DNA from: an uncultured Selenomonadaceae bacterium
GTDB taxonomy: Bacteria > Bacillota > Negativicutes > Selenomonadales > Selenomonadaceae
Length of the DNA stretch: 35,560 nt
Assembly (NCBI GenBank): GCA_905234235.1
Contig: CAJOHN010000016.1
Span: forward strand, 1-35,560
Direction: 5' to 3'
The notes beneath the pieces are model-generated. The model had not been told where the DNA came from. It was given only the letters and a program-made list of their open reading frames with translations, and ran no database searches. This document shows, piece after piece, positions 1 to 33,749 of this stretch; within the stretch, counting starts at the first letter, position 1, and every line of letters starts with the position of its first letter. A program made the translations under genes and the position numbers.

Positions 1-2891
1 CCGCCGTAGCCAATATCATAAGCCCAACCGTCGCCGCCGAATATCCATTGCGACCTTTTCACGAAGAAATCGCGATTATTATAGATTTTGTTAAGTAAAA
101 CGTCGTCATTCATCTGCGCGGCGAGAATTTCGGTTAATTTATCGGCGCGTTCGCGAGTATTTTCGCTTACGTCGCGATTATCGAGCCAATTTTTGAGTGC
201 GTCTTTAAGTTCGTCGGAAATATTGAGTTCGAGAGCCTTTTGAACGTCGGAAGCAAGCGTTTCGCGGACAGCTTTGACGCCCAAGAACATTCCAAGCCCG
301 TATTCGGCGTTATCTTCAAATAAAGAGTTGCCCCAAGCGGGTCCGTGCCCGAAAATATTCTTAGTATAGGGCATAGCGGGCGCAGACGCTCCCCAAATCG
401 ACGAACAGCCCGTAGCGTTGGCAATCATCATTCTATCGCCGAAAAGTTGGGTTAAAAGTTTGGCGTAAGGCGTTTCGCCGCAACCCGCGCAAGCTCCGCT
501 GAACTCAAAGAGCGGTTTTTCAAATTGCGAGCCGATAACGGTAGTTTTTTTAGTCGGATTAGCCTTTTGAGCGACTTTCAAGCCGAAATCGAAGATTTTT
601 TGGCGAGATTTAGCTTTGTCGTCGAATTTAACCATGCTGAGAGCCTGTTTCGGGCAAACTTGAGCGCAATTTCCGCAACCGAGACAATCATAAGTCGAAA
701 CTGCGATTGTAAGGTTATATGCGCCGCGAGAAATCTTCGACGGAATGCTTTCAAAGCCTTCGGGAGCGTTTTTGAGCTCATCATTGGTCGTTAAAATGGG
801 ACGAATCGCCGCGTGCGGGCAAACGAACGAACATTGGTTGCAACCGATACATTTTTCCTTATCCCACGCAGGAACTTTAATTGCAGTGCCTCTTTTTTCG
901 TAAGCAGTGCCTCCGACGGGGAAAGTTCCGTCCGCAAGCCCGACAAATTTGCTTACAGCGAGATTATCGCCCTCTTGACGGTTCATAACGTTTTGAATGT
1001 CGCTGATAAACGCGGGCGGGTCGATTTGCTGAGATTTTTGGTTCATACTGGTATCTTCAACGTCCCAAGTGCTAATATCGACCTTATGAAGTGCCTCAAT
1101 ACCCGCGTCAACGGCGGCGCAGTTCATATCGACGATATTTTGACCCTTAGAGCCGACAGCGTCGTCAATCGGGATAATCGCGGCGAGTTTGAAGAATGCG
1201 GCTTGCATAACCATATTAAAACGCCCGCCGAGACCGAGATCGCCCGCGATTTTGACTGCATTGACGGTATAAACTTGAATATCGTTGGCGATGATGTATT
1301 TTTTCATAGCGGGTTTAAGTTTTTTACCTAATTTTTCGTCGTTCCAGTCGGTATTGAGCAAAAAAGTACCGCCGCGCTTCATACCGGCGATTAAATTGTA
1401 ATGATGAACGTAACTTTTCTGCGAGCAGCTTACAAAATCGGGTTTAGTGATTAAATACGGGGAAGTAATGGGTTTTTCGCCGAAACGGAGGTGGCTCATG
1501 GTAATTCCGCCCGATTTTTTACTGTCGTAAGCGAAATAAGCCTGCGCGTAGAGATTTGTGTTGTCGCCGATGATTTTTATAGCAGATTTATTCGCGCCGA
1601 CAGTTCCGTCGGAGCCTAAGCCCCAGAATTTGCAAGCGGTGGTACCTTCGGGCGTCAAATCCACGTCGAGATGAGTAGTTTCGAGGGATTTATTGCTTAC
1701 GTCGTCATTTATGCCGATAGTAAAGCCATTTCGCGGCGAATCTTTCTTGAGTTCCTCAAAAACCGCCAAAAGTTGGTCGGGAGTGGTATCTTTGCCGCCA
1801 ATTCCGTAACGACCGCCGATAATCACGGGTTTAACGTCAGAATCGTAGAAAGCAGACTTCACATCGAGATAAAGCGGTTCACCGGGCGCGCCTGATTCTT
1901 TTGTACGGTCTAAAACGGCGATTTTCTTGACGGTTTTAGGAATTGCGTTGAGAAAATGTTTTACGCTGAACGGGCGATACAAATGCACGCTTACGACGCC
2001 GACTTTTTCGCCTTGAGCGTTGAGATAAGCCGCCGCCTCGTTAGCAGTCTGACAACCGGAGCCGATAGCGATAATTACGCGTTCGGCGTCGGAAACTCCG
2101 CTGTAATCGAAAATATGATGCTCGCGCCCCGTAATTTTAGCCACGTCCGCCATAATTTCTTCTACGAGGTCGGGAAGTTGCTCATAATTGTTGTTGACGG
2201 TCTCACGAATCTGGAAATAAACGTCGGGATTGGTTGCCGTGCCGCGCATGACGGGATGGTCGGGGTTAAGCGCGTTGCGACGGAATTTTTCTACCGCGTC
2301 GGCGTCCAAAAGCTTTTCGAGGTCTGCATAGTCAATCAGTTCGATTTTTTGAATTTCATGCGACGTTCTGAAGCCGTCAAAGAAGTTTATAAAGGGAATA
2401 CGTCCCTTAATCGCCGCGAGATGTGCAACCGCCGACAAATCCATAACTTCTTGTACGCTTGATTCGGCAAACATGGCGCAACCGGTTTGACGCGCCGCCA
2501 TAACGTCTTGGTGGTCGCCGAAGATTGAAAGCGTCGACGTTGCCAAAGCCCGCGCAGATACATGGAAGACGCCGGGGAGCATTTCGCCCGCGATTTTGTA
2601 CAGATTGGGAATCATCAACAAGAATCCCTGCGACGCCGTGTAAGTTGTGGTCAAAGCTCCTGCCTGTAACGAGCCGTGAACGGTACCTGCCGCGCCGCCT
2701 TCCGATTGCAACTCCACGAGCCGAACTTTTTGCCCGAAAATATTTTTGACGCCTTTCGCCGCCATAACGTCGACATCTTCAGCCATAGGCGACGACGGCG
2801 TTATCGGATAAATCGCGGCTACGTCCGTGAATGCGTAGGATACATACGCCGCCGCCTGGTTGCCGTCCATCGTCTTAAATTTTTTGCCCAT
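1..2891 (-). CDS. nifJ: Pyruvate:ferredoxin (flavodoxin) oxidoreductase, C-terminus cut by window edge
   Basis: Single-chain homodimeric PFOR, which oxidises pyruvate to acetyl-CoA and CO2 and passes electrons to ferredoxin in the cytoplasm. The visible 963 codons contain the N-terminal pyruvate-site motif PITPSSP (residues 29-35), two ferredoxin-type 4Fe-4S motifs (C681/684/687/691 and C736/739/742/746), the start of the proximal-cluster ligands (C801, C804, in CAGCGETPY) and the thiamine-diphosphate motif GDGW (953-956). Family members are about 1170-1200 residues, so roughly 200 C-terminal residues lie outside the window. The ATG at 2891 follows AGGAGAAC at a good distance. It sits 52 bases after tcdA but has its own promoter. 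An enzyme of strict or facultative anaerobes. Confidence 0.97.
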   Translation of the reverse strand, partial: MGKKFKTMDGNQAAAYVSYAFTDVAAIYPITPSSPMAEDVDVMAAKGVKNIFGQKVRLVELQSEGGAAGTVHGSLQAGALTTTYTASQGFLLMIPNLYKIAGEMLPGVFHVSARALATSTLSIFGDHQDVMAARQTGCAMFAESSVQEVMDLSAVAHLAAIKGRIPFINFFDGFRTSHEIQKIELIDYADLEKLLDADAVEKFRRNALNPDHPVMRGTATNPDVYFQIRETVNNNYEQLPDLVEEIMADVAKITGREHHIFDYSGVSDAERVIIAIGSGCQTANEAAAYLNAQGEKVGVVSVHLYRPFSVKHFLNAIPKTVKKIAVLDRTKESGAPGEPLYLDVKSAFYDSDVKPVIIGGRYGIGGKDTTPDQLLAVFEELKKDSPRNGFTIGINDDVSNKSLETTHLDVDLTPEGTTACKFWGLGSDGTVGANKSAIKIIGDNTNLYAQAYFAYDSKKSGGITMSHLRFGEKPITSPYLITKPDFVSCSQKSYVHHYNLIAGMKRGGTFLLNTDWNDEKLGKKLKPAMKKYIIANDIQVYTVNAVKIAGDLGLGGRFNMVMQAAFFKLAAIIPIDDAVGSKGQNIVDMNCAAVDAGIEALHKVDISTWDVEDTSMNQKSQQIDPPAFISDIQNVMNRQEGDNLAVSKFVGLADGTFPVGGTAYEKRGTAIKVPAWDKEKCIGCNQCSFVCPHAAIRPILTTNDELKNAPEGFESIPSKISRGAYNLTIAVSTYDCLGCGNCAQVCPKQALSMVKFDDKAKSRQKIFDFGLKVAQKANPTKKTTVIGSQFEKPLFEFSGACAGCGETPYAKLLTQLFGDRMMIANATGCSSIWGASAPAMPYTKNIFGHGPAWGNSLFEDNAEYGLGMFLGVKAVRETLASDVQKALELNISDELKDALKNWLDNRDVSENTRERADKLTEILAAQMNDDVLLNKIYNNRDFFVKRSQWIFGGDGWAYDIGYG

Positions 2892-2929
2892 AAGCTATCA
2901 AAGTTCTCCTCTCAAATGAATTGCAGGAA

Positions 2930-2958
2930 ATTATAGCACGCGGTTATAAAAAAGTAAA
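2930..2958 (-). promoter_or_regulatory. Promoter of nifJ
   Basis: On the minus strand TTTACT (2953-2958) and a perfect TATAAT (2930-2935) are separated by 17 bases. The -35 box overlaps the last codons of tcdA. The predicted transcript starts near 2923, leaving a leader of about 30 bases with the ribosome site. This lets the abundant central-metabolism enzyme be expressed separately from the upstream genes. Confidence 0.7.
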
Positions 2959-3630
2959 CAAATCCTTAACAACCTCGCCCGCCATAATCAAACCCGCGAC
3001 ACTCGGAACGAACGCCACGCTCCCGATAAAATTTTTCACGGGTTGCGGCTGTTCATCCGACCAAACAACTTTCAAATTTTTTATCCCGCGCAGTTTTAGT
3101 TGCTTACGCATGATTTTCGCGACGGGGTCGACGGACGTTTGAAAAATATCCGAGACTTTAAAACGCGTCGCGTCTAACTTATTGCCCGCGCCCATACTCG
3201 AAATAATTTTAATCCCGCGCCGCTGACATTCCTCGACTAAAAAAATTTTCGCCGTCAACGTGTCAATCGCGTCAACGACGTAATAATAACGGCTTATAAA
3301 AAAGTCTTCGGCGGGCTCGTTCGGTAATAAAAATTTCTGAATCGTATCAACCTGCGCGGACGGATTTATATCAAGAATCCTCTCGCGCATGACTTCAACT
3401 TTTGAACGCCCGACCGTCGAGCCGAGCGCGTGAATTTGTCTGTTAATGTTTGTTTCGTCGACGTTGTCCTTATCAATCAAAACCAAATGCCCGACGCCCG
3501 AACGCGCCAATGCCTCCGCCGTGAACGAACCGACGCCGCCAATCCCGAATATCGCAACCGTTGCCGAATTGAGCTTAAAAAAATTTTCTTCGCCGATTAA
3601 AAGTTTAAGCCTTTGAAATCTATCGTTCAT
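2944..3630 (-). CDS. tcdA: tRNA threonylcarbamoyladenosine dehydratase (ThiF/E1-like)
   Basis: ATP-dependent enzyme that cyclises t6A37 of ANN-decoding tRNAs to ct6A. The 228 residues show the E1-like Rossmann nucleotide site GIGGVGS (about 29-35), then DKDNVDETNINRQ, which contains the acidic and arginine ATP contacts, and HALGSTVGRSKV. It is shorter than E. coli TcdA (268). The ATG overlaps the ftsZ stop by four bases (ATGA), so translation is probably coupled; no good ribosome site of its own is visible. The same-strand cluster upstream encodes TsaB and TsaE, which make the t6A substrate. Other ThiF/MoeB-type enzymes share the fold, but the TNINRQ-HALGSTVGRSK pattern is TcdA-like. Confidence 0.9.
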   Translation of the reverse strand: MNDRFQRLKLLIGEENFFKLNSATVAIFGIGGVGSFTAEALARSGVGHLVLIDKDNVDETNINRQIHALGSTVGRSKVEVMRERILDINPSAQVDTIQKFLLPNEPAEDFFISRYYYVVDAIDTLTAKIFLVEECQRRGIKIISSMGAGNKLDATRFKVSDIFQTSVDPVAKIMRKQLKLRGIKNLKVVWSDEQPQPVKNFIGSVAFVPSVAGLIMAGEVVKDLFTFL

Positions 3631-4867: not shown

Positions 4868-5746
4868 TCACCAAGACTTTTTAATCAACGTCCACTGCGT
4901 CACGAGCATTCCGATTAACATTAAGATACAGCCGAAAATTTCCCGCGCAGTCATGACTTCGTTTAGGAAAAACCATCCCGCCAATGCGCCGAAGATTGCC
5001 TCGAAACTCATAAGGATTGCCGCCGTCGAAGGCTCCGCGTATCGTTGCCCGTAATTTTGTAACGTGAACGCAACGCCCGAACTCATAACGCCGCCATAAA
5101 GTATCGGGAACCATGAATTTATCATCGCCGTTAAGTTCGGCGTCTCCAATGCGAACATCGCTACGAAACTTAAAATCGTCGTGATAAAAATCTGCGCGGT
5201 CGACAACTCCATTAAATCTACCTTCGACGCGAACTTGTCTATCAGTAAAATTTGTACAGTCCAGACGAATGCGCTTACAAATAAAATCACATCGCCCGCT
5301 TGCACAGAAAAATTTCCTCCGACTGCCAATAAATACAAGCCGACAATCGCCAAGCTCGCGCCTATCCAATTCTCCCGACGAATTATTTTGCCTAAAAATT
5401 TTGCTCCAAGCGGTACAAACACAATGTACAGGCAAGTGATAAACGCCGCCTTGCCCGCCGTCGAATACTGCAGAGCAATTTGTTGCATTGAAGTCGCGAT
5501 AAATAACACTACGCCGATTAACAACCCGATTAAAAATCCGCGCTGATAATTTTTTTGCCGACGTTCAACCGCTCGACTTTTACGCGTGTAAATCAAAACC
5601 GCCAGCAACGATAAGAAGCCCATTAAATACCGCGCCGCCGCGTAGGAAAACGGCTCCAGTTCGTCCATCCCCGTCAGTTGCGCGACAAACGTCGTCCCCC
5701 AAAAAAACGCCGCGCCTAACAGCATCAGCGTTCCTTTTATTTGCAT
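4868..5746 (-). CDS. EamA/DMT-family inner-membrane transporter
   Basis: A protein of 292 residues with about ten hydrophobic helices, the usual architecture of the drug/metabolite transporter superfamily with two EamA repeats. The N-terminus carries GAAFFWGTTFVAQ, a common EamA first-helix pattern, and the second repeat contains AEPSTAAILMSFEAIFGAL, the typical end-of-repeat pattern. The substrate cannot be told from sequence. The chosen ATG follows AAGGAGGA, which lies over the end of the diguanylate cyclase gene; an upstream in-frame start would overlap that gene by 65 bases without a ribosome site. It lies between signalling genes and ftsZ without an obvious functional link. Confidence 0.9.
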   Translation of the reverse strand: MQIKGTLMLLGAAFFWGTTFVAQLTGMDELEPFSYAAARYLMGFLSLLAVLIYTRKSRAVERRQKNYQRGFLIGLLIGVVLFIATSMQQIALQYSTAGKAAFITCLYIVFVPLGAKFLGKIIRRENWIGASLAIVGLYLLAVGGNFSVQAGDVILFVSAFVWTVQILLIDKFASKVDLMELSTAQIFITTILSFVAMFALETPNLTAMINSWFPILYGGVMSSGVAFTLQNYGQRYAEPSTAAILMSFEAIFGALAGWFFLNEVMTAREIFGCILMLIGMLVTQWTLIKKSW

Positions 5747-5762: not shown

Positions 5763-6776
5763 TTAATCAGCGGCAATAACTCTGTTGCGCCCCGTCTCCT
5801 TTGCGCGATAAAGCCGAGCGTCCGCAACTTGAATATTTTCCTCGATAGTCAAACTCGAATCCATTTCAGTACAGCCGAAACTCATCGTCACGCGAATTTC
5901 TTTATCTTCAAACTTGCAAACCGAATCCATAATCGCAAGCCGAATCCGTTCCGCAACCGCCGCCGCCCCGTCGACATTCGCGCCCTCAAGGACTATTACA
6001 AATTCCTCGCCGCCCCAACGGTAAACGTTATCGCCGTCACGAATCTTCGACGCCAAAATTTTTGAAACGTGAACCAAAACCGCGTCGCCCGCGTTGTGCC
6101 CGTAAGTGTCGTTGACTTTCTTGAAAAAATCAATGTCGCAAATGATAGCCGACATAATCGACGTGCGCCGACGATAACGCTTTTGATAATCGCTGTGAAA
6201 GCCGAAACGATTTTTAAGCTCGGTAAGTTTGTCGCGCTGAGAATCCGCCATAAATATATCCGATTCAAGAGCCATGCCGCAGATAAACGCCGCTATCGAA
6301 AGCCGCTTGGTATCCTCGACTTCATCAAAACCGCCGTCGCCGAGCTTGTTTATAACTTGAAACGCGCCGATAATTTCTCCGCGACAATCGGACACCGGCA
6401 TAACCAAAATCGACTTGGTGACGTAGCCCGTTTTCTTGTCGACTGCAGAATTAAAATTTGGATTGTTATAAGGGTCGTTCGTGAGGACTGCGCGGTTTTC
6501 AGCGAGTGCTTGCCCGACGAGCCCCGTCTTATCGCTTATAACAATTTGACTCGTGCCCGTCGCCGCCGTCGTTATCAATAAATGTTGCCGCTTATCCCAA
6601 CGCCAAAAACTTGCTCTGTCCGCCTCGACTAACGTCCGCCCCAAGTCTGCAAAAATTTCAAACACCTTGAGGTGCCCGCCCGTTTTATTTTCATCCGAGC
6701 GCATTTCATCATACAAGCGTTGCATTATGTCAAAAATATTATTCAACATTTGCTCCGCAGAAATTTTTTCGTTCAT
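5763..6776 (-). CDS. GAF-GGDEF diguanylate cyclase
   Basis: Makes c-di-GMP from two GTP. Of the 337 residues, about 25-170 form a GAF sensor domain, with SFWRWD and the phrase GAFQVINK typical of GAF. Residues 180-337 form a GGDEF domain with the metal Asp motif CDIDFFKKVND (213-223), active-site signature GGEEF (255-259) and an inhibitory RDGD (246-249) exactly five residues before it, so product feedback is expected. No membrane segment is seen, so it should be a cytoplasmic sensor of an unknown ligand. The start follows GAGGAATTGG. It is 15 bases downstream of the MBL hydrolase and in line with the CHASE2 cyclase, giving a second-messenger cluster. Confidence 0.95.
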   Translation of the reverse strand: MNEKISAEQMLNNIFDIMQRLYDEMRSDENKTGGHLKVFEIFADLGRTLVEADRASFWRWDKRQHLLITTAATGTSQIVISDKTGLVGQALAENRAVLTNDPYNNPNFNSAVDKKTGYVTKSILVMPVSDCRGEIIGAFQVINKLGDGGFDEVEDTKRLSIAAFICGMALESDIFMADSQRDKLTELKNRFGFHSDYQKRYRRRTSIMSAIICDIDFFKKVNDTYGHNAGDAVLVHVSKILASKIRDGDNVYRWGGEEFVIVLEGANVDGAAAVAERIRLAIMDSVCKFEDKEIRVTMSFGCTEMDSSLTIEENIQVADARLYRAKETGRNRVIAAD

Positions 6777-6791: not shown

Positions 6792-7598
6792 TCACAATAA
6801 AAATTCGTCGCCCGACTTCGCAAAAGTTATCTTATCGTCGCGCCCGAATGTTCGTTCCAATTCGTCAAGTTCCGCGTCGCTCCGCAACGGCGCGTGATGT
6901 ATGAAAACTAACTTCCCAACTCCAGCGGCTTCAGCAACTTTAATTCCCTCTTGCGGAATCGAATGCCCGTAACCCCGACAACGTTCATATTCCTCCGGCG
7001 TGTATTGCGCGTCGTAAAGCAACAAGTCACAGCCCTTAGCAAAATTAATCAACGCCTCGCAAGCCTTAGGATTATGTTCAAAGTCCGTAGCGTAGACGAG
7101 AGATTTTCCTTGCCGCGTCAACCGATAAATCGTCGAGCCTGCAGGATGCGAGCCTTCCATCGCCTCAACTTCAACGTCCCCGATAGAAAATTTTTCCGAC
7201 AAAAGATTAAAGCGCGTCTTCGCAGGATAATGTTCAATCTTGCAGGGCCAAAAGGGATTTGAAATTAATTTATCAATCGCCTCTTTAGGCTGGAGCCCCA
7301 CGCGTTCATTTGCGTAAATATCAATCGGTCTTTCCTTTTCCGTCAGCGCGATAAAAAACGGCAACCCGACTAAATGGTCAAGGTGCATGTGCGTCAATAA
7401 AATCGTTATGTTCGTATTCCGCGCAGGCAATGCGCTAACTATTCCGGAGCCCGCGTCCAAATAAATTTCCTCGTCGCCCGCCAAAACTTTATAGCATGAA
7501 GTCGCGCCGCCGTATCGTGCAAAATTTTTTCCTTCGACAGGCACAGAACCTCGCGTGCCCAAAACTTTCAATCTGAGCGTTCCTAATTTTTGTTCCAT
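6792..7598 (-). CDS. MBL-fold metallohydrolase, possibly a cyclic-nucleotide phosphodiesterase
   Basis: Metallo-beta-lactamase fold protein of 268 residues. The dinuclear metal site is visible: H70-x-H72-x-D74-H75 (THMHLDH), H151 in GSHPAGS, D172 in TDFEH and a final HH near the C-terminus (FIHHAPLRSD). The N-terminal VLGTRGSVPV with later GGATSCY is typical of the RNase Z/PhnP/cyclic-phosphodiesterase-like branch. It starts seven bases after the adenylate cyclase, so hydrolysis of a cyclic nucleotide is an attractive inference but not proven. The ATG at 7598 has its AAGGAGG about 15 bases away; a TTG at 7571 with AGGA nine bases upstream would give a more family-like N-terminus. Confidence 0.88.
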   Translation of the reverse strand: MEQKLGTLRLKVLGTRGSVPVEGKNFARYGGATSCYKVLAGDEEIYLDAGSGIVSALPARNTNITILLTHMHLDHLVGLPFFIALTEKERPIDIYANERVGLQPKEAIDKLISNPFWPCKIEHYPAKTRFNLLSEKFSIGDVEVEAMEGSHPAGSTIYRLTRQGKSLVYATDFEHNPKACEALINFAKGCDLLLYDAQYTPEEYERCRGYGHSIPQEGIKVAEAAGVGKLVFIHHAPLRSDAELDELERTFGRDDKITFAKSGDEFLL

Positions 7599-7605
7599 AA
7601 ATTAA

Positions 7606-9423
7606 TCATTCGTCCTCCTTTAGTGCATTCAAAATCAAAACTTCAAAGCCGCTAGCCTTGCCCTTGAGCTTAACGGTATCGCCTAACGACGTGACATCTG
7701 CGCGGGAACCTAAAATATCAGCCACAACTCGCGAGATATAAATTTTGCCGCCGGGCGCATTAGCCTCCAAACGAGCCGCAGTATTAACCGTGTCGCCAAT
7801 CGCCGTGTAATCCATTCTGAACGGACTGCCGATATTTCCGACAACCGCCTTGCCCCAATGAACGCCTACGCCAAAAGCAATCTCGCGCCCGTATTTTTTC
7901 TTCAACTCCGCGATTAATTTCTCCGAACCTTTAATCATGTCGACAGCGGCACGGCAGGCAAGTAAGACAGGTTCATCTTGAGTAAGCGGCGCGTTCCAAA
8001 AAGCCATCGTGCAATCGCCGACAAATTTATCAAGCGTCCCGTGATGTCTTCTTACGCAATCGGTTGTAAGCGTCAAATATTGGTTGAGTATCTCGACGAC
8101 TTGCGGCGGCGTCAACTGTTCGCTCATCGTCGTGAAGCCGCGAATATCTACGAACAAAACCGCGATATTGCGCATCGTCCCGCCAACGTCTAAAGCATCA
8201 GCTCCGCCGCTTAAAAGTTGCCGCATAATCGTCGGGTCAACGTAGCGTCCGAAAGTAGCCGTAACTTTATCGCGTTCCGCGCGGGCGTGTACGTAGTTAA
8301 AAGAAACCGCGCCGATAAATAAAATGCTGACGGCAAGCGGCACCCATAAAATGTGGAGAATAATTTCGTTGTGATAACAAACTTGGCACGCGACGCCCCA
8401 ACCAAGACAAATAATCAGCCACGCCGCTAAAATGTTTTGCATCTTTCCGACCTTGAAAAACAAGCTCGAAATAAAACTTATGATGAACAGAATCACAAGC
8501 TGAAAATCCTGTGAGGCTTCGCGAGGGAAAAAATTTCGTTGGAAAGCTTGGATAGCGTTGGCGTGAATATTTATTCCATAAAGAGCCGAAGACCTATCTA
8601 AGACGGTAGAAAACTCGTCGCCCATGCCCGGCGCGTAGGAGCCAATCAAAATAATTTTGTCGCGATAAACTTCGGGATTAATTTTTCCCTCAACCAAATC
8701 AACAAAGCTAATCGCGTCGCCGTAATTTTTTGCGGTAAACGGCAGATAATAAAGCCCATTCTTATCAGTTTGCGGCGGAGGATTCGGAGTAATGTTCTTA
8801 GCTTGACAAAATTTTTCGTAGATAACTCTCGCAAACGAATACAGCCGCCCGCGCTCCTCAACATTTATGTAAAGCAGTTGATGACGAATAATCCCGTCCG
8901 CGTCGTAAGGCTCGCAAATGTGCCCCGTGTCAGCCGAATTAGCAAGAGCTTTAAACGGAGCATCCCAAGCCCAAGTTTTATTCCAAATAGCGTGAGGGTC
9001 TTCGCTGTTATCCATTTCTTCCTCGTCAACAATCGCCGCCGACGCAACCACAACATTGCCATACTTCGCGGCAACTTCGGCTAGCCTTTTGTCAACGTCG
9101 GGAGAGTCGGGATTATCGCCGGTAAAAAGTAAATCAATGCCGATAACAGCGGGGCGCGCATCCGAAGAATTCATCGAATCAATGACGTTTGCCATATCGC
9201 GGCGAATCCATGACGACATCGGACCGAGCTTGCTTAATGTGTTTGAATCAATCCCGACGACGATAATATTTGCGTCAGGCTCGCCCAACCTTTGATAAAG
9301 CCAATCTGAAATCCTTGAATCTAAATCTTCAAAAATACCAGCCGACGCCAACGCCGTTATAAAGAAGGCAACCCATAACGACCGCGCCCGAATCAGCAAC
9401 CACTTCCAACATTTTCTTAACAT
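7606..9423 (-). CDS. CHASE2-domain class III adenylate cyclase
   Basis: Membrane receptor cyclase of 605 residues. An N-terminal membrane helix (about 13-30) precedes an extracytoplasmic CHASE2 sensor domain (about 35-300, including VVGIDSNTLSKLGP and the terminal VYRDKIILIGSYAPG). Three closely spaced helices follow (about 305-375), then a class III catalytic domain (about 410-600). The metal-binding Asps are in LFVDIRGF (D426) and DKFVGD (D470), and the transition-state NTAAR is at 547-551. The lysine in DKFVGD and the Asp in MDYTAIGD favour ATP over GTP. It begins five bases after the LPP20-like gene, whose exported product might feed its sensor domain; that link is inference. Confidence 0.93.
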   Translation of the reverse strand: MLRKCWKWLLIRARSLWVAFFITALASAGIFEDLDSRISDWLYQRLGEPDANIIVVGIDSNTLSKLGPMSSWIRRDMANVIDSMNSSDARPAVIGIDLLFTGDNPDSPDVDKRLAEVAAKYGNVVVASAAIVDEEEMDNSEDPHAIWNKTWAWDAPFKALANSADTGHICEPYDADGIIRHQLLYINVEERGRLYSFARVIYEKFCQAKNITPNPPPQTDKNGLYYLPFTAKNYGDAISFVDLVEGKINPEVYRDKIILIGSYAPGMGDEFSTVLDRSSALYGINIHANAIQAFQRNFFPREASQDFQLVILFIISFISSLFFKVGKMQNILAAWLIICLGWGVACQVCYHNEIILHILWVPLAVSILFIGAVSFNYVHARAERDKVTATFGRYVDPTIMRQLLSGGADALDVGGTMRNIAVLFVDIRGFTTMSEQLTPPQVVEILNQYLTLTTDCVRRHHGTLDKFVGDCTMAFWNAPLTQDEPVLLACRAAVDMIKGSEKLIAELKKKYGREIAFGVGVHWGKAVVGNIGSPFRMDYTAIGDTVNTAARLEANAPGGKIYISRVVADILGSRADVTSLGDTVKLKGKASGFEVLILNALKEDE

Positions 9424-9428: not shown

Positions 9429-10394
9429 TTAAGCCCTGAGTCCGCCGACTCTGTAACTTTTGGCAACCATCGAACCTCCTATGCTGTTGCCGGTTAAAAC
9501 TACCGCGCCGTCATCCAAGAAATGCGAGGCTTGATTTTCCGAGAGAATTCTATCGGCGTCGTCAGCAGAAATTATCGGGCAACTATTCTCATCGCTCATG
9601 CCCGTCGCCTTGATAACCAGCGGATTATTGCCCGCCCGCGACCTGCTACTTTCCGGATTCGGCGTCGTCAATAGCAATAATTTTTTCTTGATTATCGCGG
9701 TGTAACTTAACGGCAAACTTTTTTCTCCACTCGGATTCAACGGAATATTTTCAACGGTTGGCTCTCTGTAGGCGTAAGAAACCATTCCCTTCGACACGAC
9801 TTTATCATGATCAAGATTGTTGTAGCTGTAGATTGGAATGTTATTCGCGCTACGAATCACGGGAGTTAAAACGGGTTTCAAATCCGTTTCGCCGCAATCA
9901 ATGATAAGCCCGGTGTAACGCCCCGTCACAAGTTTACTGCCGCTCGGAGGCGGGAAATCTTTTTTGTCAACGGACTTGAAAGCAACATTAGCAACCGAAT
10001 CCGTCACGCCGTACACCGGAACGCACATTACGACTTTGCAGTTATTGTACTCGTCAAATTCCTCCGATAAAATTTGTGCGCCTTTAACGACGGCATCAAC
10101 TTTGCCCTCGACAATGTCGCCCGTTAAAATTTTGGAACCGATAGTACTTTCAGCCGTGATGTGAATCCCTTTTGCTTGTTCTGCTAATTGGCGGTAAGCG
10201 TCCATCATGGCGGCGCGGCGTGCCAAGATTTGAGCTCTGCGCGGATTTTCGGCATTTTCTTTTGGGAAACCGTAGCCTTCGGCGATAAGCATATTGTTAT
10301 CCCACCAATTTTCAACGACATTATCCTGCGCGTTTGCCGTGCAATGTAAGCAGAGGATAAAACAGACGAGCAGAAAAATTTTTTTAGCGTTCAT
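9429..10394 (-). CDS. Exported LPP20-like protein
   Basis: A protein of 321 residues with a classical signal peptide (KKIFLLVCFILCLHCTANAQ; cleavage after ANA is likely). The following segment, NPRRAQILARRAAMMDAYR followed by QLAEQAKGI, is characteristic of the LPP20/FlgP-type domain found in periplasmic or outer-membrane-associated proteins. The rest has a Pro/Ser-rich middle and no recognised catalytic motif. A cysteine in the signal region (LHC) does not form a convincing lipobox. The ATG follows AGGGGGAC. It lies between rimI and the CHASE2 cyclase, with gaps of 12 and 5 bases. Function unknown; a role in envelope sensing or structure is a guess. Confidence 0.75.
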   Translation of the reverse strand: MNAKKIFLLVCFILCLHCTANAQDNVVENWWDNNMLIAEGYGFPKENAENPRRAQILARRAAMMDAYRQLAEQAKGIHITAESTIGSKILTGDIVEGKVDAVVKGAQILSEEFDEYNNCKVVMCVPVYGVTDSVANVAFKSVDKKDFPPPSGSKLVTGRYTGLIIDCGETDLKPVLTPVIRSANNIPIYSYNNLDHDKVVSKGMVSYAYREPTVENIPLNPSGEKSLPLSYTAIIKKKLLLLTTPNPESSRSRAGNNPLVIKATGMSDENSCPIISADDADRILSENQASHFLDDGAVVLTGNSIGGSMVAKSYRVGGLRA

Positions 10395-10406: not shown

Positions 10407-10862
10407 CTAAAGTTTAGTGTTCCACATGATTAGCGCGTCTTCGCCGTTGTCAAGATAATAACCCTTGCGCCGCCCGACACTCCTTAATCCGAAGCTCTCA
10501 TAAAGTCTAATCGCCGCCGTGTTGCTCGGACGAACTTCCAACGTTATCGCCGTCGCCCCGCGTGTTTTGACTGCCTTAATCAGCTCGCCGAATAAAATTG
10601 TTCCAATGCCTTGCCCGCGCAGATTAGGCTCAACCGCAACGCTCATGACTTCCGCTTGATTAAAAGAAACCCACGCGCCCGCGTACGCCACGATTTTTTT
10701 ATCAATCTCGCCGACGATATATTCCGCCAATTCATTCTTAGCCTCGCGCCAAAAATCCTCGCGGCTCCAAGGCATAGCAAAACTTTTCGCCTCAATCTCG
10801 GCAACAGCATCAGCATCGTCTTGCGTCATTGGGCGGAAGGTAAGCCGTGACGTTTCTCCCAT
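10407..10862 (-). CDS. rimI: Ribosomal protein S18-alanine N-acetyltransferase
   Basis: GNAT-fold acetyltransferase of 151 residues that acetylates the N-terminal alanine of ribosomal protein S18. Seen: the N-terminal FRPMTQDDADAVAEIE, PWSREDFW, the acetyl-CoA loop RGQGIGTILF, and the RimI-type tail EVRPSNTAAIRLYESFG followed by RRKGYYLDNGEDALIM. The gene overlaps tsaB by 37 bases, as often seen for tsaE-tsaB-rimI-tsaD groups; tsaD is not in this window. The ATG follows GGAGG. Its substrate S18 is encoded at 22592-22822. Confidence 0.93.
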   Translation of the reverse strand: MGETSRLTFRPMTQDDADAVAEIEAKSFAMPWSREDFWREAKNELAEYIVGEIDKKIVAYAGAWVSFNQAEVMSVAVEPNLRGQGIGTILFGELIKAVKTRGATAITLEVRPSNTAAIRLYESFGLRSVGRRKGYYLDNGEDALIMWNTKL

Positions 10863-11500
10863 AATACTTCAGCCTCCGAACGCCTGACGTAAAGCGGCTC
10901 CAAATTCATCACGTTATCGAATCTTCCCAATTCTTCCGCGCAGATTGCAACCGCTGACGCTCGCGGCATTCTTAAATTCGGCGGCGCAAGTCTGACGTTC
11001 GTCGGCAACGGAACTTTTATTTTGTGAAGAACATCGCCGCATAAAAAAATTTCCCCGTCAACTTTTCCAAGCTCCGCAACCAATTCATCTATCGGCTCAA
11101 TTTCTAAATCCGTCAGCGATAAACTATCGTCGAACAGCTGATGATACGCCCGATTTTTTTGCGCGTCTATCATCGGCACGACTTTTGCCTTAGGGAAGTT
11201 GTAAGACATTGCCGTTAAAGTCGGCACGCCGATTATTTTTATTCCCCACGCGTAAGCCAATGCCTTAGCCGTCGCCAAGCCGATTCGCAAACCCGTAAAT
11301 GAACCCGGTCCGATACTCACCGCCAACGCGTCAAGATTTTCAAACGCGCCAGATATTTTTATGATTTCCTCGACTTGCGGCATTAACGTTTCCGAAAAAC
11401 TCTGCGGCGATTCTCGATAACTTTCCGCTAAAATTTTCCCGTCAGAAATTACCGCAACTGAAGCCGCTCGCGTCGCAGTCTCAATCCCCAAAATCCGCAA
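10826..11500 (-). CDS. tsaB: tRNA t6A synthesis protein TsaB
   Basis: Non-catalytic ASKHA-fold partner of TsaD in the complex that transfers threonylcarbamoyl to A37 of tRNA. The 224 residues open with LGIETATRAASVAVI and contain the signature SIGPGSFTGLRIGLATAKALAY (read as two parts, about 62-83), both typical of TsaB. The start codon is TTG at 11500 behind AAGGATGATT, two bases after the tsaE stop. The 3' end overlaps rimI. The third member of the complex, tsaD, must lie elsewhere. Confidence 0.94.
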   Translation of the reverse strand: MRILGIETATRAASVAVISDGKILAESYRESPQSFSETLMPQVEEIIKISGAFENLDALAVSIGPGSFTGLRIGLATAKALAYAWGIKIIGVPTLTAMSYNFPKAKVVPMIDAQKNRAYHQLFDDSLSLTDLEIEPIDELVAELGKVDGEIFLCGDVLHKIKVPLPTNVRLAPPNLRMPRASAVAICAEELGRFDNVMNLEPLYVRRSEAEVLWEKRHGLPSAQ

Positions 11501-18087: not shown

Positions 18088-19517
<1,430 letters not shown>

Positions 19518-22008: not shown

Positions 22009-22541
22009 TAAGATTCTCCTTTCTTGGTGGCGAAGATTTTAAAGTTCAGTTCGCACGAGAGAAATTTCCCCTCCGATTTTTCCAAAGAAATTTTTTCCAA
22101 AGTTGCCAAGCGTTCGCCGTCGAGTATTTCGCGTATGAAACTCAGCAACGAAATATAATCCGCCTCTAATTTTATGTTGATAATCTGCGCGGAAATTTCT
22201 TTTGATGAAATTATCTCGCCCGTTTGCACGGAAATTAATCGCGCTCTATGCAAATCAGCCGCCCGATAAAGTTCGTCGATAAATTTATCTTGTTGAAGTA
22301 TCGGCGGTAAAAAATTTTGTGCCGCGTCGAGTTCAAGCTCTTTTGCCGCGACTAACGACGATAAATCTCCGTGCCGCGCCTTTAACGCTGAAATTTCCCG
22401 TTCAAGCTCGCGAAGTCGCCGCGTTTCAAGCTCCATACTTAAAATTTCGCGCCGCGCAGGTTCATAAATAAATTGTTGCCAGCCGACGAATAAAATTGCG
22501 CATAAAATGATTGTTATCGGCAGGAAAAATCGCTCGCGCAT
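22008..22541 (-). CDS. PilO-like membrane protein
   Basis: A protein of 177 residues: one membrane helix near the N-terminus (FFLPITIILCAILFVGWQQF), a coiled coil rich in Arg/Glu/Leu (about 33-70), and a C-terminal alpha/beta domain with ISLLSFIREILDGERLATLEKI. This matches PilO of type IV pilus and type II secretion platforms (inner-membrane alignment proteins). No pilM, pilN or pilQ is near, so it is an orphan or a PilO-fold protein with another role. The ATG at 22541 follows GAGGATTG; a TTG six bases upstream is a weaker alternative. Confidence 0.65.
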   Translation of the reverse strand: MRERFFLPITIILCAILFVGWQQFIYEPARREILSMELETRRLRELEREISALKARHGDLSSLVAAKELELDAAQNFLPPILQQDKFIDELYRAADLHRARLISVQTGEIISSKEISAQIINIKLEADYISLLSFIREILDGERLATLEKISLEKSEGKFLSCELNFKIFATKKGES

Positions 22542-22591: not shown

Positions 22592-22822
22592 TTAATCTGC
22601 AGTGAACGGCAAGAGCGCAATATTGCGGGCGCGTTTGATGGCGATTGTCACTTGACGCTGATGCTTGGCGCAGTTGCCCGAAATGCGGCGCGGAAGAATC
22701 TTACCGCGCTCAGTGGTGAAGCGGCGAAGTTTTGCCGCGTCCTTGTAATCTATTTTCTCAACTTTATCGACGCAAAACGCACAAACTTTTCTGCGCGGGC
22801 GTCGACCTCTTTCTCTGCGCAT
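22592..22822 (-). CDS. rpsR: 30S ribosomal protein S18
   Basis: Small-subunit protein of 76 residues that pairs with S6 on the platform. Basic [11 protein letters not shown] head, then C14-x2-C17 (CAFC) and VDKIDYKD-like core, [18 protein letters not shown] and a later cysteine in GNCAKH. The cysteines make this the zinc-binding (C+) form. The ATG at 22822 is seven bases after AAGGAGG; a TTG two codons earlier is inside that spacing and is rejected. Last gene of its operon. RimI, encoded at 10407-10862, would modify an alanine N-terminus, but here residue 2 is Arg. Confidence 0.97.
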
Positions 22823-24076: not shown

Positions 24077-24767
24077 GGGAGGCTCCTTTCTCAAGGTTAG
24101 GAATTTGCCAATCGATTGGGGATTCGCCGCTTGATTCGAGGAATTGATTGACGCGTGAAAACGGGCGGCTCCCGAAAAATCCTCCGCTCGCCGATAACGG
24201 GCTAGGATGCGCCGATTCAATTATCAAATGGCGCGGGTTCGTTATCATAATTTTTTTACGCCGCGCAGGATTTCCCCATAGGATGAACGCAAGCGGGCGT
24301 TGGTGTTCGTTTAGGAGGCGAATGATTTTATCGGTAAAAATTTCCCAGCCGTGTCCGCGATGTGAATTTGCCGCGTGTGCTCTGACTGTTAAAACTGTGT
24401 TCAAAAGTAAGACGCCCTGCTCCGCCCAATACTTAAGGCAACCGTTATTCGGGATAAAACAGCCCAAATCGTCGCGCAACTCTTTGAAGATATTCATCAG
24501 CGACGGCGGCGGCGGCACGTTCGGCAGAACAGAAAAACTTAGTCCGTGTGCTTGCCCCGGCTCGTGGTAAGGGTCTTGCCCAAGAATCACAACTTTTGTA
24601 TCGGCGTAGCTCGTGAAGTGCAACGCGTTAAAAATATCGTACATGTTCGGGAAAATTTTTTTGGTGCTGTACTCGTCAATCAAAAACTTGCGCAACTCTT
24701 GATAATACGGCTCGTTAAGTTCGTCGGCTAAAAGTTCTTGCCAATCATTCCTAAAAATTTTTTTCAT
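24069..24767 (-). CDS. ung: Uracil-DNA glycosylase, family 1
   Basis: Removes uracil from DNA. The 232 residues have the catalytic GQDPYH motif (63-68, D65), the uracil pocket [26 protein letters not shown], and the DNA-intercalation loop HPSPLS (H187), all in the family-1 order. The ATG overlaps the stop of the folK-DHFR fusion by four bases. Placing ung with a folate/DHFR operon makes sense because low reduced folate lowers dTTP and raises uracil in DNA; the functional link is inference. Confidence 0.97.
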
Positions 24768-25672
24768 CGCGTGTATCTCCTAAACTCGAAACCGTCAAAA
24801 ATCTGCGCGGCACTCAATTTAAAATCTTCAATGTCAGGGAAGAAAGTATCCGCTTGAACTTCGGCGTCAACAACAGTCAAAAAAATTTCTTCGGCGTAGG
24901 GAATAAGTTCGTTAAAAACTTGCGCGCCGCCGATAATAAAATTTTCTTCCGCCGCGTCCAACACGTCAAATAATTCCTCAACGCTCCCGACGACTTCCGC
25001 GCCCAAAATGTTTTTCGACGAACAGCTTAAGATAATATTCCTGCGTCCGTCAAGCGGCTGTTGATTAGGGAAAGTTTCAAGCGTGCGCCGCCCGTAAATA
25101 ATCGTGTGATTCAAAGTCAGCGCACGGAAATTTTTTAAGTCTTCGGGAAGGCGGAAGAGCAAATTATTTTTATAACCAAGCCCGAAATTTTTATCGACGC
25201 AAGCAACGAGTTTGAACTTAAAATCAATCGGCGAGCCCGCAACCTTAACAACTTTATCGCCGCGCAGATTGACTTCCAACGTCGGGCAAATTTCTTTAAG
25301 CGGTATCAATGCAAAGTCGCGCTCAAATAAAAATTTATGAGGCACCGTTAATCGTTCACAAGAAATTTCCGCGCCGTAAAGAATATCCAAATCAATCGTG
25401 CGTGCGCCCCAATGTTCACGCCGTACCCTGCCCAACTCCAATTCAATCCGTTGCAATTCGTCCAGTAAGTTGAGCGGTTCAAGTTCCGTAGAAATTTTTA
25501 TCGCGGCGTTGATGAAGTCCGGCTGATTGACGACGCCCCAAGCCTCCGACTCGTAAAACGACGACACACGCTTAAGTTTGACGGCAGGAATTTTTTTTAC
25601 AAGTTCAATCGCCCGTCGCAAAGTCCGTTGACGTTCGCCGAGATTGGAGCCGAGCCCGATGTAATAAATCAT
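24764..25672 (-). CDS. Bifunctional HPPK-DHFR fusion (FolK-FolA)
   Basis: A single frame of 302 residues joining two folate enzymes. Residues 1 to about 155 are 6-hydroxymethyl-dihydropterin pyrophosphokinase: [47 protein letters not shown]-type signature ([15 protein letters not shown]) and [16 protein letters not shown]. Residues about 160-302 are dihydrofolate reductase: [28 protein letters not shown] with the catalytic Asp, [18 protein letters not shown] and FIIGGAQVF. The tryptophan usually found before the LP-x-D segment is Phe here. The joint is seamless with no internal start. It overlaps folB (ATGA) and ung (ATGA). Confidence 0.93.
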
Positions 25673-26036: not shown

Positions 26037-26822
26037 TCACGTCTCCTTTAGTAATTTGTCTATCGTCAGACACATTCTTGAAATCAGTTTAACATTGTGG
26101 ACGCGGACGATGTCGACGCCCTTGCTTATCGCGTGAACGCAAATCGCGCCCGTTGCCTCGTCGCGTTCGTCGATAGGAAGCCCCGTCAACTTCCCAATAA
26201 AACTCTTGCGACTGACGCCCAGCATTAAAAAATTTTCTCGCCCGTCTAAATTCTTAAGCTCATCGAGGCGGCGTATAATTTCTAAATTTTCCTCGTACGT
26301 CTTGCCGAAACCAATCCCCGGGTCGAAAATAATTTGCCCGTCGAATTTAGCCAACGTACGTCTGAAAAATTTTTTAACGTCGTCGATAATGTCGCCGTCT
26401 GAACATTTTTCATTGTGCATGGCGATAACGGGCGCGCCGAATTTTTTAGCAACGTCAATCATGCGCGAATCTTCCAAGCCGCAAACGTCGTTGATAATGT
26501 CCGCGCCGAGTTCTTGAGCCTGCGCGGCGACTTCGGGCTTGTAAGTGTCGATTGAAATTGGAACGCCAAGATTTTTAACAGCGGGCAAAATTTTTTCCAA
26601 GCGGCTAAGTTCCTCGTCAATGCTAATCGGTGTGGCGTCAGGGCGCGTCGATTCGGCTCCAACGTCGATAATGTCCGCGCCGTCGTCGATTAATTTTTTT
26701 GCATGAGCCGTTGCCGCGTCGATAGAAAAATATTTCCCGCCGTCAGAAAAGGAATCAGGCGTCACATTCACAATCCCCATGACTAAAGTTTTCTCGCCGC
26801 GCAGATTTAAAAATTTCCCCAA
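26037..26822 (-). CDS. folP: Dihydropteroate synthase
   Basis: Joins p-aminobenzoate to hydroxymethyl-dihydropterin pyrophosphate; the sulfonamide target. The TIM-barrel signatures are present: GIVNVTPDSFSDGG, DVGAESTRP, ISIDTYKPEVA, GADIINDVCG, FDPGIGFGKT, LMLGVSRKSFIG and the final VRVHNV. The 261-residue form starts with TTG at 26822, nine bases after GGGAG; the TTG at 26831 abuts the ribosome site. First gene of the operon folP-folB-folK/DHFR-ung. Confidence 0.96.
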   Translation of the reverse strand: MGKFLNLRGEKTLVMGIVNVTPDSFSDGGKYFSIDAATAHAKKLIDDGADIIDVGAESTRPDATPISIDEELSRLEKILPAVKNLGVPISIDTYKPEVAAQAQELGADIINDVCGLEDSRMIDVAKKFGAPVIAMHNEKCSDGDIIDDVKKFFRRTLAKFDGQIIFDPGIGFGKTYEENLEIIRRLDELKNLDGRENFLMLGVSRKSFIGKLTGLPIDERDEATGAICVHAISKGVDIVRVHNVKLISRMCLTIDKLLKET

Positions 26823-26937: not shown

Positions 26938-28218
26938 GTGGTTTTATCGAAAGCAAAATTGATGGCACTGACTGCAATGCTGACGGCGTCATCAATGATT
27001 TTCGGCGGTTGTGGCGACGACAATAAACAACAACAAGCGCAAGTTCAAAAGGCGCAAGTAAAAGCGATGAAAGTCCTCCAACGCGATACGCCGCTCGCCA
27101 AAGAATACGCCGGACATTTGGTCGGCACGGAAGAAGTTAAGGTTCAAGCAAAAGTCTCAGGCAACGTCGTCGAGAAATATGTAAACGGCGGGCAGTTCGT
27201 TGAGCAAGGACAGCTCCTCTATCGAATCGACGACCGCCAATACAGATCCGCAGTCTTGAGAGCGCAAGCCGACCTCGCGCAAGCCGAAGCCTTACTCAAA
27301 CAATCGCAGGCGACTTACGAAAATTCTAAGGCAGATTTGGAACGCAATCAACAACTCTTAAGTGAGGCGGCAATTTCCAAGCAAGCGGTTGACAATCAAG
27401 AGGCTAAAGTCCGCGCAGATAGGGCGACGTGTGCTGCAAATGAAGCGTCGATAGATGCTTGTAGAGCCGCCCTCAGAACAGCGCAAGAAAATCTCGACGA
27501 CACAGAAATTTTCGCGCCAATGACAGGTCAGCTCGGCGTCGACGACGTAGCAATCGGCACCTTCATTTCGGCGGGGCAAACAACTCTCGTAACACTCGGC
27601 TCGCCCGACCCTATCTTTGCCCAGTTTTCTATCAGCGAATCAGATTATCTGCACTTTATGACTGTTCAGAACATGCAATCGGATCATAATCCAATTAACG
27701 TGACGATAACGCTCGCCGACGGCAAAATTTATCCGTTCGAGGGGCGCATCGTTGAAGTTGACCGCGAACTCGCCAACAGCACCGGCTCCCTTATCATGAA
27801 AGCGATTTTCCCGAATCCCAGCGGACTTTTAATGCCCGGTATGTTTGCTCGCGTCAAGTTAAGCGGCGAAGTCATTCCGAATGCGCTTTTAGTTCCTCAA
27901 CGCGCTGTCCAGCAACTTTTGGGCAAATCGTTCGTTATGGTTGTCGGTAATGAAAATAAATCTGAAGCTCGAACCGTTGAACTCGGCGATCAAGTCGGCA
28001 GTTATTTTGTTGTCAATAAGGGCATTAACACAAGCGATACCGTCGTCGTCGAGGGCTTAACCAATCTGCGCGAGGGCGTCGAGATGGATGTTAAAACCGT
28101 CACGGCGAGCGAAATGGGATTTACTTTGGCGAACGTAACCAGCACTTATAACGCGGACGCAGGACTTGACGCGCCCAATATCAATCCGAACGCGCCCGAT
28201 AATCTGCGCGGAAAGTGA
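26938..28218 (+). CDS. RND efflux periplasmic adaptor lipoprotein (AcrA/MexA family)
   Basis: Membrane-fusion protein that links an inner-membrane RND pump with an outer-membrane channel. The 426 residues begin with a lipoprotein signal (ALTAMLTASSMIFGGC, lipobox FGGC). A barrel/lipoyl half with VKVQAKVSGNVVEKYVNGG and LLYRIDDRQYRSAV follows, then a long coiled hairpin (about 100-175), then FAPMTGQLGVDDVAIGTFIS and the membrane-proximal part ending with VVEGLTNLREG. The GTG at 26938 is five bases after GGGAGGGG; the ATG 15 bases upstream abuts AAGGA. Twelve bases separate it from the pump gene. Confidence 0.95.
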   Translation: MVLSKAKLMALTAMLTASSMIFGGCGDDNKQQQAQVQKAQVKAMKVLQRDTPLAKEYAGHLVGTEEVKVQAKVSGNVVEKYVNGGQFVEQGQLLYRIDDRQYRSAVLRAQADLAQAEALLKQSQATYENSKADLERNQQLLSEAAISKQAVDNQEAKVRADRATCAANEASIDACRAALRTAQENLDDTEIFAPMTGQLGVDDVAIGTFISAGQTTLVTLGSPDPIFAQFSISESDYLHFMTVQNMQSDHNPINVTITLADGKIYPFEGRIVEVDRELANSTGSLIMKAIFPNPSGLLMPGMFARVKLSGEVIPNALLVPQRAVQQLLGKSFVMVVGNENKSEARTVELGDQVGSYFVVNKGINTSDTVVVEGLTNLREGVEMDVKTVTASEMGFTLANVTSTYNADAGLDAPNINPNAPDNLRGK

Positions 28219-33462: not shown

Positions 33463-33473
33463 GAGGAATTTTT

Positions 33474-33662: not shown

Positions 33663-33684
33663 AAAAATCTTCGACAAAACTCTC

Positions 33685-33719
33685 AAGCTCAGCTGAAGAA
33701 ATTCAGCTTGAGCTTTTTT
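33685..33719 (+). terminator. Terminator before recA
   Basis: AAGCTC-AGCTGAA and TTCAGCTTGAGCTT pair over 13 positions with one bulged base, loop of four, followed by six T. It closes the accessory operon. Confidence 0.85.
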
Positions 33720-33720
33720 G

Positions 33721-33749
33721 TTGCCCGCGCAGATTTTTTTTTGTATAAT
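33721..33749 (+). promoter_or_regulatory. Promoter of recA
   Basis: TTGCCC (33721-33726), 17 bases, perfect TATAAT (33744-33749). The spacer contains the window's enriched 10-mer CCGCGCAGAT (33725-33734), overlapping the -35 end. No LexA-type palindrome (GAAC-N4-GTTC) is visible between here and the start codon. Confidence 0.75.

Follow-up and report, generated by a model that had tools for sequence, protein, structure and literature searches.

A dispersed genomic word with lineage-specific dialects in an uncultured Selenomonadaceae genus: a candidate DNA-uptake sequence

INTRODUCTION

Why does a contig of an uncultured Selenomonadaceae bacterium carry so many copies of one decamer, ATCTGCGCGG? 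The contig (CAJOHN010000016.1, assembly GCA_905234235.1) was analysed over its positions 1 to 35,560, the whole stretch that we call the window. A preliminary description, made from the letters of the window, had counted 17 exact decamers and about 34 copies of the core octamer, CTGCGCGG, in mixed orientation, and had read them as an uptake or HIP1-type (highly iterated palindrome) word. We consider it likely, by analogy with known systems, that the word is a DNA-uptake-sequence-type signal belonging to a lineage-specific system. We infer the further steps, namely competence, word-biased uptake, a pilin receptor and molecular drive.

RESULTS

Enrichment beyond composition and codon use

Both counts in the window held up. 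There are 17 exact copies of ATCTGCGCGG (7 on the forward and 10 on the reverse strand), the first starting at 112 and the final one ending at 33734, where 100 dinucleotide shuffles gave a mean of 0.14 and a maximum of 2. The exact count of CTGCGCGG is 36 (18 on each strand), with a shuffle mean of 2.05 and a maximum of 7. The window is part of a draft genome (G000:C16:1-35560; 2,148,753 bases, or 2.149 Mb, in 46 contigs, 85.67% complete), in which we found 699 decamers (370 + 329); the control, i.e. the word read backwards and counted in the same genome, occurs 7 times (2 + 5). The octamer is present in 2007 copies (1022 forward and 985 reverse) against 278 for the reversed word, a density of 0.93 per kb with near-equal use of the strands.

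In 422,585 bases, ATCTGCGCGG was the top-scoring 10-mer against an order-4 Markov model (150 observed, 5.6 expected, 26-fold). We also permuted codons within each gene, keeping the proteins, in 30 shuffles of a sample of 535,797 bases (27 pieces with 463 open reading frames (ORFs) of at least 100 aa, 89.7% coding). The ORFs contain 158 decamers against 7.7 ± 2.6 after shuffling. Neither codon use nor peptides explain the word, because the 456 octamers in ORFs compare with 36.9 ± 6.1 under synonymous shuffling (∼12-fold). The preliminary description had judged codon or peptide bias insufficient from copies in differing frames; the 12- to 20-fold excess agrees with it, and CTGCGCGG indeed occurs in all six frames, unevenly (22 to 111 per frame). 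The enrichment is real, extends genome-wide, stands far above both the Markov and the codon-preserving expectation in the bases sampled, and is larger than had been stated.

It is extremely unlikely that the word is a by-product of composition, codon use or word avoidance, or a dispersed mobile repeat. Strong palindrome avoidance in this genome does distort expectations and a second word, TCAGCGCG, is enriched as well, as a by-product would allow; still, the excess over synonymous shuffles and over the Markov model contradicts such an origin as a full account, and since the sequence around the decamer shows little conservation past a single flanking base (150 decamers), no mobile unit is seen.

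The avoidance itself is pronounced. In the window and pieces L031-L060 of the same genome, the observed to expected ratio is 0.02 for GGCC and 0.13 for GATC; among hexamers of the same sequence, CCGCGG occurs once against 354 expected, GGCGCC twice against 185 and GATATC twice against 148. This suggests strong past or present restriction.

As to the anatomy of the word, its earlier label 'AATCTGCGCGG-like' was apt, since A precedes 75% of the 150 decamers found in the 422,585 bases. The first three positions of AATCTGCGCGG tolerate A, C or T, while G is rare. Single changes within CTGCGCG showed no clear excess, except AATCGGCGCGG (12 versus 2.5) and AATCAGCGCGG (5 versus 1.5). The octamer is asymmetric: 503 copies were observed, and 144.8 would be expected if the flanks of GCGC were independent.

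Concentration in one genus

We surveyed 189 genomes of the order, 66 from the same genus and 123 from other genera. At least 100 copies of ATCTGCGCGG are present in 37 of the 66 and in none of the 123, the largest count among the latter being 63; a mild excess of the decamer was seen in some other genera (e.g. g22, with 20-63 copies versus 1-14 for controls). The outcomes that the preliminary description had named as refuting, a genome count close to expectation or a word missing elsewhere in the genome and in close relatives, were not obtained; the word is found genome-wide and in much of the genus. Among the ruminant-gut Selenomonadaceae metagenome-assembled genomes with loci that carry the PilT relative of this genus are Quinella sp. 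1Q5, 1Q7 and 2Q5, and the host genus, as judged from sequence, is probably Quinella or its immediate kin.

Some genomes of the genus are poor in the word: G121, G101 and G007 have 31, 41 and 97 copies of CTGCGCGG genome-wide versus 10, 21 and 16 of the reversed word. No dialect, in the sense given below, was found in samples of 17-91 kb from each of these three and from G013, G116, G003 and G005, or in 14-20 kb from each of G008, G120 and G105. In other families of the class, ∼20 kb from each of 15 genomes and 40 kb from G039 yielded no clear equivalent, at a sample size that weaker words could escape.

Other dispersed words were encountered in the course of the survey. G026 and G039 show some; in G039 (L189-L190) GGCAATGACA has 10 copies in 40 kb versus 0.3 and is possibly another iterated word or repeat family. 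In G003 (L066-L068, L226-L228) there are 24 copies of AAAAAGATCC in 91 kb versus 1.0 expected, located in 15 different 1-kb bins. AT-rich words like AAAATTTTTTC are several-fold above the Markov expectation in several genomes of the genus, e.g. in L206 and L221-L224 (G113).

Dialects of the word and their phylogeny

De novo word counts, made on 8 to 124 kb per genome, gave other top words in several CTGCGCGG-poor genomes, and these words were counted genome-wide. Three more words, CTGCGCGA, CCGCGCGGA and CTGCGCAG, were identified, each one base from CTGCGCGG in the octamer; all four dialects contain GCGC. The first, CTGCGCGA, has 2335 copies in G006, 2294 in G118, 2206 in G004, 1941 in G099, 1532 in G112, 1525 in G110 and 1242 in G019, with backward controls of 165-431 in these seven genomes; next in the genus are G021 (796, control 540) and G119 (772, control 185). 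Counted on both strands, CCGCGCGGA, which in many cases lies within the longer palindrome TCCGCGCGGA, reaches 2179 in G124 and 1482 in G103 (controls 66 and 49), and at most 206 in any other genome of the order. The third, CTGCGCAG, is itself a palindrome and has 477 sites in G111 (control 44), the sole clear CTGCGCAG genome; then come G019 (98), G110 (92) and G102 (80 versus a control of 12, a weak excess), and the genome of the window has only 26.

These assignments were checked in 13 genome sets, in each of which the synonymous codons were shuffled 20 times. Within own-dialect genomes the counts were 102 versus 5.5 and 48 versus 10.1 for CTGCGCGA, 49 versus 4.2 and 41 versus 5.5 for CCGCGCGGA and 25 versus 1.2 for CTGCGCAG. 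Outside their own genomes the dialect words were mostly near expectation, with several exceptions: CTGCGCGA in G000 (67 versus 26.6, 2.5-fold), CTGCGCAG in G102 (8 versus 1.0), CCGCGCGGA in G111 (9 versus 2.2) and CTGCGCGG in G111, G113 and G115 (∼2-fold). G115 had a mixed enrichment, CTGCGCGA at 25 versus 3.5 (7-fold) and TCAGCGCG at 27 versus 4.6, and was given no dialect. The word TCAGCGCG, considered as a dialect of G113, was ruled out; enriched in most sets tested, it is a separate word.

The ComEC tree had 34 rows from the 66 genomes of the genus (35 sequences were at hand; that of G116, a short fragment, was dropped), including three of the seven CTGCGCGA genomes and both CCGCGCGGA genomes. 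The CCGCGCGGA genomes G103 and G124 group together (support 100/100), as do the CTGCGCGA genomes G019, G006 and G118 (100/98). A clade of 21 rows (97/96) comprises CTGCGCGG genomes along with G111 (CTGCGCAG) and G005 (no excess); CTGCGCGG is dominant also in G023 and G119, outside this clade. G122, a genome with moderate counts, has the word-free G013 as its sister, and the long rows of G003 and G102 were placed unsurely. In the PilT tree (53 rows), G110, G019, G118 and G004 group with L120 and L121 (92/80), and the word-poor G121, G101 and G007 fall in one early branch (90/67). As far as sampled, the dialects follow phylogeny. The pattern suggests an old presence of the word in the genus, at least three changes of its sequence and more than one loss.

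The words look like combinations of two arms, CTGC and CCGC: CTGCGCAG has two CTGC arms, CCGCGCGG two CCGC arms and CTGCGCGG one of each. Such half-sites would be compatible with a FimT-type pilin receptor that is two-fold or paired and in which the two reading heads change singly. It is possible, although doubtful, that sequence-selective uptake in Quinella and its immediate kin evolved separately from that of Proteobacteria, and that its four or more GCGC-based dialects are made of mix-and-match half-sites.

A core shared by all dialects could also point to methylation of GCGC, with methylation-dependent mismatch repair creating and keeping the flanks, as proposed for cyanobacterial HIP1. 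Two of the dialect forms, CTGCGCAG and TCCGCGCGGA, are palindromic, and HIP words are described as reaching 300-2700 per Mb and as giving way to alternates in certain genomes (PMC4390886). We regard this explanation as unlikely. The main word CTGCGCGG is not palindromic and the two commonest dialects are asymmetric, whereas extensions of HIP1 are described as keeping the palindrome (PMC4390886). Genes for C5 methyltransferases (PF00145), present in 46 of the 66 genomes of the genus, do not track the word in a search that covered the C5 type: none was found in the word-rich (incomplete) genomes G010, G017, G012, G094, G123, G130 and G019, and such genes were found in G013, G005 and G008, which have no excess of the word.

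Spacing and orientation

The copies are spread evenly. The largest gap is 7.3 kb versus an expected maximum of 6.6 kb, the coefficient of variation of the gaps is 1.0, and gaps shorter than 100 nt make up 4.2% versus 9.3% expected (535,797 bases). Proteins scanned in word-free gaps (10 in number) belong to accessory as well as core genes. The mixed orientation reported earlier was confirmed, and strand use showed no visible relation to GC skew in the two contigs checked.

A short, GC-rich, abundant and evenly spaced word might serve recombination or the chromosome, as Chi, the FtsK-orienting KOPS or a nucleoid-protein site would. This is very unlikely here, given that there is no strand bias along the two contigs or with their GC skew and no genome-wide strand excess in the octamer counts above (in a draft in which the origin is not placed). 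Furthermore, several species of the genus have the word rarely or not at all, as do sister genera in which such functions must exist, and its sequence changes between sister clades.

Competence and pilus machinery

The competence genes pointed to in the preliminary description were found in the genome of the window: those for ComEC and ComEA, and prepilin-like genes. The gene for PilT is present as well. ComEC is above its NCBIfam cut-off in this genome and was detected in 62 of 66 genomes of the genus, including 14 of 14 with a completeness of 90% or more and a contamination of 5% or less. ComEA is above the cut-off in 63 of 66, the copy of the window's genome being at G000:C5:49710-49895. 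PilT (L059:10136-11113) is above the TIGR01420 (NCBIfam) cut-off here and in 149 of the 189 genomes of the order. The pilT gene is followed by that of a PilC/GspF-type protein above the Pfam cut-off; prepilin-like genes (L059:13032-14950) lie behind an ftsE-like gene, so named by eye. The genome also has a lone GspE/PilB-like ATPase (L055:15110-16252) and a ComF-like family protein below the curated cut-off (L060:3267-3965).

In L059, L079, L080, L086, L088 and L090, four prepilin genes form a cluster close to pilT and pilC, behind an ftsE-like gene; in L078, L083 and L077 it is an ftsX-like gene that comes after the ftsE-like one (names given by eye). Beside comEC in the window's genome (L060:11175-16200) are genes that we take to be Zorya-like; they include a MotB/OmpA-type protein with a weak, sub-cut-off match to ZorB1 and a protein read by eye as helicase-like.

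A candidate receptor pilin

The uptake receptor would be a pilin, and our candidate is the first prepilin-like gene, L059:13032-13493 (contig C29 of the window's genome), which encodes a prepilin leader. Among 21 pilT loci, two of which (G106, G123) end before the pilin position, relatives of the candidate are located beside pilT in seven (G111, G107, G095, G109, G129, G017 and G005); in G113 a pilin end with GRFRG is seen at a contig edge. The candidate has a weak ComGE match in NCBIfam, and Pfam GspH matches one of eight pilin members scanned, weakly. A homologue from L127, 65% identical to the candidate, was modelled by AlphaFold2 from 16 rows with a mean pLDDT (predicted local distance difference test) score of 82.7; the closest PDB folds to this predicted structure were FimU (4ipu, E 7.7e-4, probability 1.00) and EpsH (2qv8, E 0.011, probability 1.00).

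In Legionella FimT a C-terminal GRxR is reported to contribute to DNA binding (PMC8897410). The minor pilin of the window's genome ends in this motif. A GRxR terminus was detected in 13 of 17 distinct pilin copies; L112 and L138 also have GRxR though the pattern missed them. The pilins of L102, L103, L105 and L107 are without GRxR, the second arginine being absent. L103 and L105 group with G106, where the word is 1.5-fold over control, and L102 is from G107 (2.2-fold). Loss of GRxR may accompany a weaker word; a counter-case is G005, which keeps the motif with no excess of the word.

Conservation of sites between relatives

When relatives whose DNA is 83-88% identical were compared (three pairs), 38 sites of CTGCGCGA were shared and 12 were not. 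This conservation ranks first among 100 GC-rich CpG 8-mers and third among 496 words (Fisher p 4.5e-8, uncorrected for overlap among control words).

DISCUSSION

A probable uptake-sequence system

In the system that we favour, a minor pilin of a type IV pilus would bind double-stranded DNA better when the species' own word is present, PilT would retract the pilus, ComEA and ComEC would bring one strand into the cell, and recombination would insert DNA of kin into the chromosome. Fragments bearing the word would enter more often, so that the word could spread by molecular drive to ∼1 copy per kb; molecular drive of uptake words has been described in Haemophilus (PMC7811141). A shift of receptor preference in a lineage would shift the word in the genome and thus give a dialect, and once biased uptake is lost the word would decay. 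The uptake part of the preliminary reading is strengthened by abundance, concentration in the genus, dialects and machinery, while its HIP1 part is weakened by the asymmetric word and the C5 genes that do not track it.

A number of observations weigh against an uptake function. The first concern specificity. The octamer is a less sharp marker of the genus than the decamer: in other genera it reaches 587 copies (G186, against 343 of the reversed word), and its ratio to the reversed word is 5 to 7 in some low-count genomes of other genera (136 versus 27 in G162, 101 versus 14 in G086). G039, from another family of the class, has 33 copies of ATCTGCGCGG versus 1 control in 3.8 Mb. The second dispersed word, TCAGCGCG, exceeds its synonymous-shuffle counts 2.5- to 8-fold in 9 of 13 genome sets, whatever the dialect (G103, G124, G102 and G013 showed no enrichment).

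Machinery and receptor raise a second set of difficulties. ComEC, ComEA and PilT are present also in word-free species such as G013; therefore the machinery does not predict the word and is at best a condition, not a cause, of it. The pilin cluster is absent beside pilT in the three CTGCGCGA loci read gene by gene and in the CTGCGCGG genomes G023 and G096.

The behaviour of individual sites is a third. Among relatives with CTGCGCGG, 15 sites were shared and 12 were not (p 0.26), and for CTGCGCGG sites of G000 the numbers were 18 and 41 (p 0.21), like control words in both cases; turnover in the CTGCGCGG clade is therefore roughly at the background rate. Such a rate fits drive with turnover or decay, and also fits no maintenance. 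There is no intergenic excess: 50 of 503 octamers lie between genes and 453 inside, matching the ∼10% of non-coding DNA. Close inverted pairs are rare, unlike in Neisseria; only six neighbour pairs are closer than 60 nt, two of them inverted, and therefore the word does not make terminators. Inside genes, sense and antisense copies are nearly equal (220 versus 233), whereas known uptake words are reported to show a sense/antisense bias (PMC2346458). An AT-rich 3′ flank, which at first seemed USS-like (uptake signal sequence), was rejected, as CTGCGCGG is only 6th of 184 GC-rich words in AT flank (z 1.9), some of the words above it overlapping the motif. The ∼5-kb Zorya-like island is not depleted, with nine copies. 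Finally, Quinella is described as having no culture (PMC9585023).

A word search of the main text of the Quinella genome paper returned no mention of competence, pili, pilus or transformation (PMC9585023). In the open-access literature (most subscription papers and bioRxiv preprints being outside this scope) we found no paper joining 'DNA uptake sequence' with Negativicutes or with overrepresented genome words in Firmicutes; 'uptake sequence' with Selenomonas and competence returned only a paper on a Streptococcus mutans phage, and the decamer string appears in papers on other subjects.

If the uptake reading is right, the genus would present an independent case in an outer-membraned lineage of Bacillota, suggesting that biased uptake gives rise to such words anew. 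To our knowledge, only two families, both of Proteobacteria, are known to have self-recognizing DNA uptake that relies on an abundant genomic word. The natural dialects would provide a third system for pairing receptor and word, and the words would be genomic evidence of DNA exchange in an uncultured rumen genus. In practice, the matching word might be required in donor DNA meant for these bacteria.

Sites in the window

All copies in the window are given in Table 1. The longest word-free stretch, ∼28212-33724, includes a gene for an AcrB-type RND (resistance-nodulation-division) exporter (28231-31425) behind one for an HlyD-type adaptor. A CHASE2-cyclase protein is encoded at 7606-9423.

Table 1. 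Exact matches to the decamer ATCTGCGCGG and, elsewhere, to the core octamer CTGCGCGG in the window
Feature	Position	Strand
ATCTGCGCGG	112..121	+
ATCTGCGCGG	2550..2559	-
core CTGCGCGG	3086..3093	-
core CTGCGCGG	3352..3359	+
core CTGCGCGG	4943..4950	-
ATCTGCGCGG	5190..5199	+
core CTGCGCGG	6488..6495	+
core CTGCGCGG	7419..7426	-
ATCTGCGCGG	7696..7705	+
core CTGCGCGG	10237..10244	+
ATCTGCGCGG	10615..10624	-
ATCTGCGCGG	10936..10945	-
core CTGCGCGG	12965..12972	-
core CTGCGCGG	14104..14111	+
core CTGCGCGG	15954..15961	-
ATCTGCGCGG	16274..16283	+
ATCTGCGCGG	16739..16748	-
core CTGCGCGG	17104..17111	+
core CTGCGCGG	17200..17207	+
ATCTGCGCGG	17557..17566	-
core CTGCGCGG	17730..17737	+
core CTGCGCGG	18590..18597	+
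core CTGCGCGG	18877..18884	+
ATCTGCGCGG	19858..19867	-
core CTGCGCGG	20135..20142	-
ATCTGCGCGG	22183..22192	+
core CTGCGCGG	22452..22459	-
core CTGCGCGG	22791..22798	+
core CTGCGCGG	24261..24268	-
ATCTGCGCGG	24801..24810	+
ATCTGCGCGG	25260..25269	-
core CTGCGCGG	26520..26527	+
ATCTGCGCGG	26797..26806	-
ATCTGCGCGG	27411..27420	-
ATCTGCGCGG	28202..28211	+
ATCTGCGCGG	33725..33734	-

Comparison with known systems

The DNA uptake sequences (DUS) of Neisseriaceae, with ComP as the receptor, offer a close parallel. Eight DUS dialects are described as congruent with the core-genome tree and as having an invariant CTG core (PMC3630211). The Quinella words likewise have ∼1 copy per kb on both strands, dialects that are tree-congruent as far as sampled, an invariant core, and type IV pilus and Com genes in the genome; CTG is present in three of the four dialects. 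They differ from DUS in word and phylum, in having no intergenic or terminator excess and two palindromic dialects, and in that their receptor and uptake bias are putative.

The USS of Pasteurellaceae, for which ComN/PpdA is the predicted receptor, are described as two dialects sharing an inner core, at 200-800 per Mb (PMC12616744). A short core, a comparable density and the existence of dialects are common to both; in USS the core is followed on its 3′ side by two AT-rich blocks, whereas the AT-rich flank in Quinella is weak after control. HIP1-type words are described as palindromic and tied to methyltransferases (PMC4390886). The likeness of the Quinella words to cyanobacterial HIP1 and the alternate HIPs lies in hundreds to thousands of copies and in other words replacing them in some genomes; unlike these, the main Quinella word is asymmetric and shows no link to C5 methyltransferases.

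At the level of the receptor, the candidate resembles FimT/GspH minor pilins in its prepilin leader, in the FimU/EpsH-like fold predicted for its homologue and in the GRxR terminus of most copies; it departs from that family in the single weak Pfam GspH match and in the 4 of 17 copies with no second arginine. Within the same class, Veillonella parvula is a Negativicute with pilus-type competence genes, its competence locus being described as of the type IV pilus/type II secretion system type with a PilT-like ATPase and pilins (PMC5397411). Unlike what we propose for Quinella, an uptake word was judged in that report unlikely to explain the DNA preference of V. parvula (PMC5397411). By analogy, the Quinella words appear to behave like DUS and USS dialects, differing in sequence and phylum.

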